The translations under genes and the position numbers were made by a program. Shown piece after piece: positions 11,818 through 19,441 of a DNA stretch of 64,000 bases. The stretch covers positions 1-64,000 of the forward strand of contig NZ_MWQY01000006.1 in assembly GCF_002087085.1 (NCBI RefSeq), in the 5' to 3' direction. Under the pieces are notes generated by a model. It ran no database searches and was not told where the DNA came from. It saw only the letters and a program-made list of their open reading frames with translations. This DNA comes from Marispirochaeta aestuarii (GTDB lineage Bacteria; Spirochaetota; Spirochaetia; JC444; Marispirochaetaceae). Position 1 is the stretch's first letter, and each line of letters begins with the position of its first letter.

Positions 11818-12783
11818 ATGATGGGTAAACACCGTAATTATATGTTTATACTGCTTGCAGCCGTATTACTTGCGGCCGGCATTCTCCTTTTGAACGGCAG
11901 CTGCCAGAGTCCTGCAGCTTCTGCGCCCGAGCCGGACAGTACAGCTGCAGAAAATACGGTTCCCGGGGTAATTCCCCTGGAAGGGCCGATCGTGGTCGCC
12001 CTGCAGCCGGGTCACTGGAAGATCGACGAACTCCCGCCGGAAGCACTTCGCCGTCCGCGCAGTACAGGAGCTGTCCACGGAAATGTCCAGGAGCTCGACA
12101 TCAACCTTGCGGTTGTGGAGGCCCTGGTCCCCCTGCTGGAGGCGGAAAACTGGCGGGTCATCGTTGTTCCCGCGACGGTTCCTCCAGGGCTGCGGGCCGA
12201 CGTGTTTCTCTCAATCCACGCCGACTGGGGTACGGATCCGGCAAGAAGGGGCTGGAAGCTCGCTCCCCCCTGGCGCCCGAGCGTCGCTTCAAGCGAGATC
12301 GCCGAAGCCCTCAAGGAGTCATTCAGGGCCGAGGAGAGTCTGACAGAGGATGCAGACGGCGTTACCGTCGGAATGCGCGGTTATTTCGGATTCAGCTCCC
12401 ATCGCTACCATCACGCATCAAGTCCCTACACCCCTGCGGTACTTATTGAACTCGGCTTTGTAACCAACGCCGTCGACCGGGAACTGATGGTAACACAGCC
12501 GGAGTTCTTCGCCGGAATTATCCATCGCGGTCTGGAGAGGCATTTTTACACCCGGGGACGTTCCGATGTCGCATCCCTTGTTCCCAGGGAGTATGAAACC
12601 ATGGCAGTCGGTTCAGACGGGGCACACGTACGGCAGAGACCGGATCATTCGAGCCGCCTTGTCCGCAGGCTTGAGGCCGGCTCGTATATCTGGCCTGTTG
12701 ACGATACCGGGGACTGGTATCTGGTCAGACTCCGCAATCCCTTTCAGGTCGGATGGGTAGATTCAAGGTCGCTGGTAAATTAA
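11818..12783 (+). CDS. Lipoprotein N-acetylmuramoyl-L-alanine amidase + SH3
   Basis: This 321-residue envelope protein probably cleaves the amide bond between muramic acid and the stem peptide. The signal has a lipobox-like LNGSC (C29), so it is probably lipid-anchored. The Amidase_3 domain covers about residues 57-245, with the zinc ligands H66 (QPGHWK), E92 (QELDIN) and H134 (SIHAD) and the catalytic E211 (VLIELGFVTN) all present. A bacterial SH3-like domain (about 258-320; VRQRPDHSSRLV) may bind the wall. ATG codons at 11818 and 11821 are both possible starts. Transcribed alone from its own promoter and convergent with the next gene. Confidence 0.88.
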   Translation: MMGKHRNYMFILLAAVLLAAGILLLNGSCQSPAASAPEPDSTAAENTVPGVIPLEGPIVVALQPGHWKIDELPPEALRRPRSTGAVHGNVQELDINLAVVEALVPLLEAENWRVIVVPATVPPGLRADVFLSIHADWGTDPARRGWKLAPPWRPSVASSEIAEALKESFRAEESLTEDADGVTVGMRGYFGFSSHRYHHASSPYTPAVLIELGFVTNAVDRELMVTQPEFFAGIIHRGLERHFYTRGRSDVASLVPREYETMAVGSDGAHVRQRPDHSSRLVRRLEAGSYIWPVDDTGDWYLVRLRNPFQVGWVDSRSLVN

Positions 12784-16228: not shown

Positions 16229-17197
16229 GTGCCTCCGTCTTTAACAGTTGAAGAAAAGCCTGTCCCCGGCCCCAATTCCTCTTTAAACCCGCAGACCAAA
16301 GTAATCCTCATAGTAGAAGACGAGGCAATCATCGCCCTGGCGGAAAAGAAGATCCTGGAAAAGGCCGGGTACACAATCCATACAGCCTGTAACGGCGAAC
16401 GTGCCGTGGAACTCACGGAAAGCCTTGAGAGAATCGATCTTATACTGATGGATATCGATCTCGGACATGAGCCGGACGGTACGGAGACTGCGGAACGCAT
16501 CCTCACCCGGTATGAAATTCCGATCATGTTTCTTTCGAGTCACACCGAGGCCGATATCGTGGAAAGAACCGAGGGTATCACCTCCTACGGTTACATTGTC
16601 AAGCACAGCGGAGATACGGTACTGCTTGCCTCCATAAGGATGGCTTTCAGATTGTATGAGGCCCGCAGGTCCATTAAAGAGCATATGGGTATGCAGGATT
16701 TGATCCTGCGGGTGAGCAAATGTCTTGCAGCAACCTCGGACCTGCAGACGATTCTTCAGATTGCCTCTGACAATCTGGCGAAACTCTCAGGACTGAACAG
16801 CGGCGCCATCTATACCCTTGATAATGCCGTCCTTACCCTGAGGGCAACCACACCACCCTTTACAGAGCCCCCGCCTGAAAAGTTCCTCAGAGCCCGGATA
16901 CAGGATCACCCCCATATAAATAACGCCCTGCAGAGACGCGAGGCGGTCTATATCCCGGATACCGGATCAGAAGCATTTACGGAGGAAGAGCAGGCCATTG
17001 CCGAGGGCAGGCAGTTGAAATCTATTCTCTATGTTCCCCTGCTTTCCCAGGGAAAGAGTATTGGCGTTTTTATAACCGGTGCAACCAGCCGGAAAACCTC
17101 AATAAAGAAAACAACCATTCTGCTTTGCGAAACTCTGGCCAATATAGCCGCCCTTGCGGCGGCGAACGCCCTCAATCAGTCGAACAGTACAGAGTAA
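16229..17197 (+). CDS. Receiver-GAF domain signalling protein
   Basis: This 322-residue soluble protein joins a receiver domain (about residues 23-135, phospho-acceptor D75 in LILMDIDLGH) to a GAF domain (about 150-318; QRREAVYIPDTGSEAF, YVPLLSQGKSIGVF). No kinase, GGDEF or DNA-binding output is present. The sequence between them resembles the linker in proteins where a histidine kinase follows the GAF, so it may be a truncated relative. The start is GTG, with AGGTGG nine bases upstream; earlier ATGs run into stops. The diguanylate cyclase gene converges on it from the other side 7 bp after its stop. Confidence 0.85.
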   Translation: MPPSLTVEEKPVPGPNSSLNPQTKVILIVEDEAIIALAEKKILEKAGYTIHTACNGERAVELTESLERIDLILMDIDLGHEPDGTETAERILTRYEIPIMFLSSHTEADIVERTEGITSYGYIVKHSGDTVLLASIRMAFRLYEARRSIKEHMGMQDLILRVSKCLAATSDLQTILQIASDNLAKLSGLNSGAIYTLDNAVLTLRATTPPFTEPPPEKFLRARIQDHPHINNALQRREAVYIPDTGSEAFTEEEQAIAEGRQLKSILYVPLLSQGKSIGVFITGATSRKTSIKKTTILLCETLANIAALAAANALNQSNSTE

Positions 17198-17204
17198 GCG
17201 AAAC

Positions 17205-17783
17205 CTATTCCTTTATCCCCGCAACCCGGTTTCTGCCCGTCTGCTTTGCAAGGTAAAGGGCCTGGTCCGCCCGAAGGAGGAGATCATCCGGAGAATCCGA
17301 GGGCTGGACCTCGGTAACACCGAAGCTGCAGGTAATCTTCTGCTCTTTGAAGAAATCATGTTTTTCCACCAGGGCCCGCAGTTTCTCGGCGAGCCCCATG
17401 CCCTGCCGATGGCTGCAATTTGGAATTATGATCATAAACTCCTCGCCTCCCCAGCGGCCGATGGTATCCGTTTCGCGAATATTATTCTCCAGCAGCCCGG
17501 CGAAAGATTTCAGAACCTCGTCCCCCTTCTGATGACCGAAATTGTCGTTAACCTCCTTGAAGAAATCTATATCTGTCAGGATTACAGAAAACGTCTCTCC
17601 GTACCTGCGAAAGCGTGCGAGTTCTTCGGAGATCCTTTCATCAAGGCAGGCCCTGTTTTTAAGCTGGGTCAGCTTATCGGTAATTGACAGATCCGTAAGT
17701 TCCCTGTGGGTCCTGTCGTAGGCCTTCGAAAACTGCAGAACGACAAGGAAAACCGCAATCAGCTGTACAGGAACCTGAATCAT
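17205..17783 (-). CDS. GGDEF diguanylate cyclase, catalytic half (frameshifted)
   Basis: From the ATG at 17783 this part encodes 192 residues: the end of a membrane helix, then a full GGDEF domain that would make cyclic di-GMP. The active motif is GGEEF, preceded five residues earlier by the R-x-x-D inhibitory site (RETD). The same frame is open upstream to 17831, where it meets the end of the membrane half in another frame. Together the halves make a normal membrane-anchored cyclase of about 346 residues. The ATG at 17783 lacks an obvious ribosome site and would give a protein without most of its sensor, so I read this as the second half of one gene. Confidence 0.85.
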   Translation of the reverse strand: MIQVPVQLIAVFLVVLQFSKAYDRTHRELTDLSITDKLTQLKNRACLDERISEELARFRRYGETFSVILTDIDFFKEVNDNFGHQKGDEVLKSFAGLLENNIRETDTIGRWGGEEFMIIIPNCSHRQGMGLAEKLRALVEKHDFFKEQKITCSFGVTEVQPSDSPDDLLLRADQALYLAKQTGRNRVAGIKE

Positions 17784-17818
17784 GCGGTCGATATACTGAG
17801 CAGTCCGGGGATAGTCCC

Positions 17819-18244
17819 TTACCAGGGCGGGAAAAAATATTCGATTATAAGCAGTGCAGGGAAAACCAGTACCAGCAGGCTTATCAGAAAAACCCGGGTC
17901 CGTCCCTTGAACAGATATGTTATGGATACCACCAGAAGAAAGGTATAGCCCAGAGCATTATTATTGCTGCCTCCGGACTCAATGAACGCGTAGGGCAGAA
18001 AAACAGCAACAAGAAAAAGATAGAAAAAAAGCATACCCTCTGCGGCTTCGGATTTAACTCTATCCACAACAAAAGAAGCCGACGCAGCGGCAACCAACAG
18101 CAACCATTTGATACTCAGATACAGAGGAAAGCCCGCAACCAGGTTCCCGATTATACTGATAACTGACAGAGAAATACAGAAAATGAGAAGTATGGAATAC
18201 AGGCGCTGTTCAATTGTCGAAAAAAAGGAGGTTCGTCTCATCAT
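17819..18244 (-). CDS. Membrane sensor half of the split diguanylate cyclase
   Basis: 141 residues with about five hydrophobic helices and little outside the membrane, ending FFPPW and a TAA at 17821-17819. A -1 shift at 17831-17837 would continue as PALVRDYPRTAQYIDRM into the GGDEF half, which supports one original gene. It has a strong promoter at 18269-18296. It is either a recently broken gene, a single-base sequencing deletion in the six-T run, or a product of recoding. Confidence 0.75.
   Translation of the reverse strand: MMRRTSFFSTIEQRLYSILLIFCISLSVISIIGNLVAGFPLYLSIKWLLLVAAASASFVVDRVKSEAAEGMLFFYLFLVAVFLPYAFIESGGSNNNALGYTFLLVVSITYLFKGRTRVFLISLLVLVFPALLIIEYFFPPW
17831..17837 (-). other. 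T TTT TTC slippery heptamer at the frame junction
   Basis: On the minus strand the zero-frame codons are TAT TTT TTC CCG CCC TGG TAA. The T-TTT-TTC heptamer is of the X-XXY-YYZ form, and slipping back one base gives CCC GCC CTG GTA, exactly the frame of the GGDEF half. The zero-frame stop comes four codons after the heptamer. Only a weak GGGA-CTA-TCCC hairpin follows, and no upstream Shine-Dalgarno-like stimulator is seen. Confidence 0.55.
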
Positions 18245-18268
18245 CTGCTCACCGGCGAGTTTATACCC

Positions 18269-18296
18269 AGTATAGACGACCCGGATTAATTGTCAA
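18269..18296 (-). promoter_or_regulatory. Sigma-70 promoter for the split cyclase
   Basis: On the minus strand, a consensus TTGACA (18296-18291) is followed after 16 bp by TATACT (18274-18269), 25 bp before the start codon at 18244. It is one of the best promoter matches in the window, so the split gene is probably transcribed. Confidence 0.7.
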
Positions 18297-18364
18297 TCGA
18301 CCCGGGTCTGTACAATGCCTATTGACACTGTTACCAAAATATTAGCATTAGTAAAACAGAAAAG

Positions 18365-19441
18365 ATGGAAGAAACCTTCAATCTCCTGAACAACGCCTCA
18401 TCCCAGTTCGAGGCGGTTCTGCCGGAAATCGAGGACCTGAAAAAGGTCGCTGCCAATCCCGACGAGAATCGTGACACACGGATCGAAGCCTTCGAAGATA
18501 TCATCGCCTCAGAAGTCGGAGACACCCCTCTGGTCAGGGCCCGTAACCTTGAGCGGGAGGTGGGCCTGCGCCAGATCTTTCTCAAATTCGAGGGAGGCAA
18601 CCCTTCGGGGACCCAGAAGGACAGGATAGCCTTTGCCCAGGTCCTGGACGCCCTGCGCCGGGGGTATGACACAATAGTCATCGCCACATGCGGAAACTAC
18701 GGCGCCGCCATGAGTTTCGCCTGTTCCCTGGCAGGGATACGCTGCAGAGTCTACATACCCGAGAAGTACCACACCAACCGGATTGAAGAGATGCGCAAAT
18801 TCGATCCCGAAATTATCCGGGTCCCCGGGGATTACGAAAATGCCGTGGAGGTCTCCTCGACAGACGCCCGGCGTCTCGAATTCTACGACGCCAACCCCGG
18901 AGGAGACAATACGGACCTGCAGATCCGGGCATACGGTTCAATAGCAGAGGAGATTTACGATGAACTGCGGGACGCCCCAGCGGTGATCTCCATTCCGGTC
19001 TCCAATGGCACAACCCTGGCGGGTATTTACCGGGGATTCATGAATCTCTACCGCCGGGGAAAAACCTCCAGGGTGCCGCGAATTTTCGCAGGTTCCTCCC
19101 ACGGAAAGAATCCCATTATCCGTGCGGTGGTAAAGAACCTGCCCCACTGCGAAGACCTCAATCCGGGCCGCATCAGGGAGTCGGTTACCAACGAACCCCT
19201 GATAAACTGGCACTCCATCGACGGAGAACAGGCCCTCATCTCAATCCGCAATTCCGGAGGCGTGGCTGGCTTTGCATCGGATAAGTCCATGCGGGATTAT
19301 TCCAGGCTCATCCGTCAGACCGAAGGCTTTCACGTGCTGCCGGCTTCCACCGCGGGACTTGCCTCGATGATCGAGTCTCATAAAAAGGTTCCCCTGGGGA
19401 ATGACCGCTATGTTGTTGTCCTTACGGGGAGAAAATCTTGA
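18365..19441 (+). CDS. PLP-dependent enzyme, threonine synthase-like
   Basis: This 358-residue fold-type II PLP enzyme resembles threonine synthase and related ammonia-lyases. The PLP lysine is probably K85 (NPSGTQKDR), followed by the substrate loop ATCGNYGAA and the phosphate-binding loop PVSNGTTLAG. It is shorter than classical threonine synthase and starts an operon whose next genes overlap it, so it probably acts on an amino acid in the same pathway as the DgcN/DgcA-type proteins. A TTGACA at 18322-18327 lies upstream, but its -10 is unclear. The reaction cannot be fixed from sequence. Confidence 0.82.
   Translation: MEETFNLLNNASSQFEAVLPEIEDLKKVAANPDENRDTRIEAFEDIIASEVGDTPLVRARNLEREVGLRQIFLKFEGGNPSGTQKDRIAFAQVLDALRRGYDTIVIATCGNYGAAMSFACSLAGIRCRVYIPEKYHTNRIEEMRKFDPEIIRVPGDYENAVEVSSTDARRLEFYDANPGGDNTDLQIRAYGSIAEEIYDELRDAPAVISIPVSNGTTLAGIYRGFMNLYRRGKTSRVPRIFAGSSHGKNPIIRAVVKNLPHCEDLNPGRIRESVTNEPLINWHSIDGEQALISIRNSGGVAGFASDKSMRDYSRLIRQTEGFHVLPASTAGLASMIESHKKVPLGNDRYVVVLTGRKS

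Follow-up and report, generated by a model that had tools for sequence, protein, structure and literature searches.

Programmed -1 frameshifting of the dnaX type takes place at a canonical in-frame X XXY YYZ heptamer, and a diguanylate cyclase gene of Marispirochaeta aestuarii that is broken at T TTT TTC shares this element; it differs from dnaX-type genes in that its site is not conserved, no structure is found downstream and no Shine-Dalgarno-like stimulator is visible upstream. A second class of comparison is formed by recent prokaryotic pseudogenes and by the "singletons" of the GeneTack survey, which, as the portion of that report on singletons describes them, are confined to one genome, involve one indel, have unbroken homologues and lack a conserved frameshift box (PMC3711429). 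The cyclase break resembles them in each of these respects, and no feature that we tested sets it apart from the singletons. The same portion attributes singletons to sequencing error or recent indel, and holds error mainly responsible where BLASTp confirmed the frameshift (PMC3711429). With regard to slippage on homopolymers, Baranov et al., in their treatment of run length, report that in a large proportion of genomes selection against slippage is visible once runs reach nine, and call eight A non-slippery (PMC1088944), while GeneTack, in its corresponding passages, ties slippage to T runs above eight (PMC3711429).

At the protein level, the closest described systems are the membrane-anchored GGDEF diguanylate cyclases (PF00990; TIGR00254), with which the gene shares a GGDEF domain with GGEEF and RxxD motifs, and relatives that carry an N-terminal membrane domain. 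It differs from them in being broken, and in that its own membrane domain (about 140 amino acids, 17822-18244) matches no Pfam or NCBIfam family. A literature search for a diguanylate cyclase with a programmed frameshift at a slippery site found nothing, and one for GGDEF phase variation by homopolymeric-tract frameshift returned only a Pseudomonas mutation-accumulation study, as far as the accessible portion of that study goes. We contend below that the break is very probably a singleton one-base frameshift, either a true indel or an assembly error, in an ordinary membrane diguanylate cyclase gene.

Anatomy of the Broken Gene

The window, which is the whole stretch of 64,000 nucleotides analyzed here, contains the following features.

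17819 to 18244, minus strand: ORF1, 141 amino acids plus stop, which encodes the membrane half of the broken diguanylate cyclase (helices 1-5, as assigned from homology) and is homologous to the N-terminal part of nine unbroken relatives
17205 to 17954, minus strand: open stretch in the -1 frame, encoding the last membrane helix, a coiled coil and the GGDEF domain (GGEEF, RETD; PF00990, 158 bits)
17831 to 17837, minus strand: T TTT TTC heptamer; aligned to the intact orthologue of G002, the closest relative, the window is short of one base here or immediately next to it
18269 to 18296, minus strand: sigma-70-type promoter TTGACA-16-TATACT, 11 of 12 consensus positions, with the same spacing before the G002 orthologue
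18365 to 19441, plus strand: divergent neighbor, a PLP-dependent enzyme that scores above the cut-off of the NCBIfam threonine synthase model PRK06381.1; its G002 counterpart is 95% identical and marks synteny

ORF1 runs on the minus strand for 141 codons, from an ATG at 18244 to a TAA at 17819, and only three sense codons separate the in-frame T TTT TTC (17837-17831) from that TAA. Read with a single -1 step at the heptamer, it continues to a stop ending at 17205 and becomes a 346-residue diguanylate cyclase with GGEEF and, five residues before it, the R-x-x-D motif RETD. The initial annotation, which had described a membrane ORF joined through the heptamer to a GGDEF half in the -1 frame, is thus correct as to anatomy on the minus strand. 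The two frames share 136 nt, and the first ATG within the -1 open stretch lies at 17783. Because the -1 frame opens 120 nt ahead of the heptamer, it is homology, and not the open frames by themselves, that places the junction.

The GGDEF half, with its GGEEF motif intact, exceeds the PF00990 cut-off (158 bits against 23.8) and is predicted to be a diguanylate cyclase; the N-terminal membrane domain has 38 invariant columns in an alignment of its four closest members. A protein model of the G002 orthologue, built from an alignment of nine sequences (mean pLDDT 86, pTM 0.55), has predicted helices at residues 6-35, 39-60, 65-87, 95-109 and 113-135, and a long helix at 145-186 that leads into the cyclase domain. 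The intact gene would encode five membrane helices and a sixth that continues as a coiled coil, followed by GGDEF. In this model the break maps to residues 133-137, at the end of the fifth helix, so the two halves are probably not natural separate modules, and the GGDEF part would keep the sixth helix only.

The consensus promoter that the initial annotation had placed before the gene is also borne out (TTGACA-16-TATACT at 18296-18269, 11 of 12 positions), and the same 28-nt arrangement precedes the orthologue in G002. Overlapping its -35 region is an inverted repeat at 18278-18308, with 15-nt arms that are 80% complementary and separated by 1 nt (GACCCGG... / ...CCCGGGTC); this repeat could be a candidate operator, and G002 does not share the DNA around it.

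Relatives Carry the Gene Unbroken

Relatives were gathered by searching with ORF1 in 98 genomes (six with a match, own genome included), by a profile search of 394 genomes of the class (seven with a match, own included), and by a search of further genome contigs, which contributed one more (JAHDLA010000010.1); viral contigs that were searched held no relative of ORF1. Merging these searches gave nine distinct relatives, namely G002, G032, G163, G062, G024, G044, G239, G275 and JAHDLA010000010.1. In all nine, one open frame leads from the membrane part into the GGDEF domain, and in none is it split. The closest, G002, is of the same genus and carries a syntenic orthologue that matches at 69% over the N-terminal half. 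The -1 read-through protein aligns without a gap across the junction to four of the nine (G002, G032, L015 and L054), and the nucleotide alignment to G002 has a lone gap of one base bordering the T run, with clean flanks.

At the codons aligned with the heptamer, an in-frame X XXY YYZ is absent from every relative (0/9). Similar strings do lie nearby in unbroken frames, as T TTT TTA in G002 at offset -11 (the window heptamer being at -2) and as T TTT TTC in G062 at offset +2. Conservation of a slippery site together with a split frame, by which a programmed -1 frameshift would be recognized among homologues, is therefore lacking, and what is found instead, unbroken homologues that differ by a single indel, is what characterizes a recent pseudogene or indel singleton. 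Comparison with relatives had been named by the initial annotation itself as a means of refuting recoding, and with nine of nine unbroken and none bearing the aligned heptamer, the recoding reading fails that comparison. Conserved recoding was rejected, as none of the nine relatives is split. Among the five readings then offered, a mutation or a sequencing deletion is supported; programmed frameshifting, slippage on the six-T run and phase variation are not.

The genome of the window encodes FlaA (PF04620), which none of 14 control genomes has and which suggests a spirochaete; no 16S gene was found in it. In another genome of the same genus, G001, the neighboring gene is present and the N-terminal half has no match at E 1e-3, so that on sequence evidence the cyclase gene looks absent there. 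The relative on JAHDLA010000010.1 (L015) belongs to a metagenome-assembled genome labelled Sedimentibacter and is a 46% relative of the N-terminal membrane domain, which may reflect horizontal transfer or a misbinned contig.

The Heptamer and Its Surroundings

The overlap of the two frames does contain an in-frame X XXY YYZ, T TTT TTC, as expected of a programmed -1 site, and the initial annotation had the gene split exactly there. An in-frame heptamer does stand at the break as placed by homology, but the coincidence is weak evidence: with 98 in-frame X XXY YYZ motifs in 29,583 codons (the 82 ORFs of the contig with homologues in G002), about 0.15 would be expected by chance in the 45-codon overlap. 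The overlap also holds T TTC CCT, nine codons upstream of the heptamer, and T TTC CCG, which overlaps it. Moreover, when a base is lost within or next to a run of T, the shortened run comes to stand before its neighbor, such that an in-frame slippery heptamer can be the consequence of a break and not its cause; the concurrence of break and heptamer consequently says little for recoding unless the site is conserved, and the locus is of interest chiefly as a caution on this point. Here, the heptamer is very probably a by-product of the T run, and no signal.

Programmed -1 ribosomal frameshifting, which would produce a membrane stub and a full cyclase in a set ratio, could call on the canonical type of this heptamer, on the restoration of the protein by a single -1 step and on halves that look constrained. 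We nevertheless hold it to be extremely unlikely, since both heptamer and split are missing at the site in nine of nine relatives, and since T TTT TTC occurs in frame seven times in the 82-ORF set, twice in ORF1 itself, where the second copy lies 64 codons upstream. The search for stimulators points the same way. Downstream RNA folded no more stably than its shuffled versions, whether 91 nt were folded (z +0.60; 143 of 200 shuffles as stable) or 61 nt (z +1.57; 189 of 200), pseudoknots being outside the folding model; no Rfam family matched positions 17000-19000 even at E 1; and no Shine-Dalgarno-like or AGGAG-like string was visible by eye in the 30 nt before the heptamer. A structural stimulator was rejected on the folds and the lack of an Rfam match. 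The initial annotation, to which the stimulatory elements looked weak, had itself leaned away from classical recoding.

Transcriptional slippage on the T run might restore a share of full-length mRNA, and Baranov et al. describe known cases in which a run of A or T rescues a broken gene (PMC1088944). Six T, however, falls short of the thresholds given in the run-length passages of that work and of the GeneTack survey (PMC1088944; PMC3711429), and the same gene contains longer T runs, two T7, which makes slippage at this shorter run highly improbable. The T7 pair also weighs on phase variation, in which changes in tract length would toggle the cyclase among cells: the break does coincide with a homopolymer, and a switch of this kind could plausibly act on a regulator, but the six-T tract is not the longest in the gene and is not conserved at this site across the family, and we consider the chance of such a switch to be very slight.

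Age of the Break and Its Consequences

Measured against G002, pN/pS is 0.21 in the GGDEF half (rank 52 of 82) and 0.29 in the membrane half (rank 68 of 82, somewhat relaxed), the median over the 82 ORFs being 0.18. With G032 as outgroup, changes unique to the window numbered 5 against 14 unique to G002 in the N-terminal half, and 4 against 10 in the C-terminal half, so that the window branch is not accelerated; with L015 the picture was mixed, reversing in the C-terminal half (4 against 12, and 10 against 6), and with L054 it was even (10 against 9, and 9 against 7). Taken at the level of sequence, neither half of the gene appears clearly decayed. Together with the conserved promoter and the intact GGEEF and RETD motifs, this indicates that the break is either recent in the organism or present in the assembly alone.

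On the singleton reading, the gene has lost one base at or next to the T run that separates helices 5 and 6, and the sequence shows that translation stops three codons on. The product would be a predicted membrane stub without cyclase, and probably little or no GGDEF protein would arise, since beyond the break the open GGDEF frame has its first ATG about 35 nt after the stop, with no evident ribosome-binding site. Loss of one cyclase may be tolerated given the many other GGDEF genes in this genome, which has 31 stretches matching GGDEF.

The conserved protein sequence and promoter tell to some degree against the singleton reading, as they would also fit a gene that is still used through slippage, and a polymorphic or leaky locus is possible. 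Under the latter, a real indel would be tolerated since weak -1 slippage on T TTT TTC would still supply a little full-length cyclase; this rescue is unsupported, and we judge it very improbable. If true, the mutation would turn one c-di-GMP input down instead of knocking it out, which would explain the undecayed halves, and leaky expression, once shown, would make the locus a natural example of slippage softening the effect of an indel.

Frame Breaks Elsewhere

Assembly or sequencing error is a special case of the singleton frameshift, in which the gene is intact in the organism and the break exists in the consensus alone, and we regard it as a serious possibility at somewhat below even chances. 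It would accord with the lack of clear decay in either half, and homology-validated singleton frameshifts are the class in which the GeneTack authors, in their account of singletons, anticipated sequencing error (PMC3711429). Contig C3 of this genome also carries a second GGDEF gene that is broken. Set against this, the window holds 91 homopolymer runs of at least six, and no break affects its other T7 and A7 runs, among them both T7 in the cyclase gene; moreover, just one of 77 comparable genes is broken. This last count comes from a survey of 216 kb of the window's contig and 259 kb of G002, in which a script flagged breaks in 2 of 77 and 5 of 82 ORFs, respectively. One flagged break per side fell on a start codon preceded by a ribosome-binding site and was discarded as spurious, leaving 1 of 77, which is the cyclase gene, and 4 of 82. 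Broken genes are thus part of the background in this genome and its relative, in keeping with the singleton reading.

The second broken GGDEF gene (G000:C3:138535-139595, L016) likewise encodes a membrane protein; its break falls within the GGEE motif, and the frame is again resumed in the -1 direction. As a sign of systematic recoding it was set aside, neither supporting nor excluding it, since its site is of a different kind and no orthologue was found in six other genomes at E 1e-20. The breaks in G002, in G002:C1:463000-482000 and adjoining stretches, include the orthologues of two genes that are intact in the window (11818-12783 and 16229-17197), and the G002 assembly may contain indel errors or many pseudogenes.
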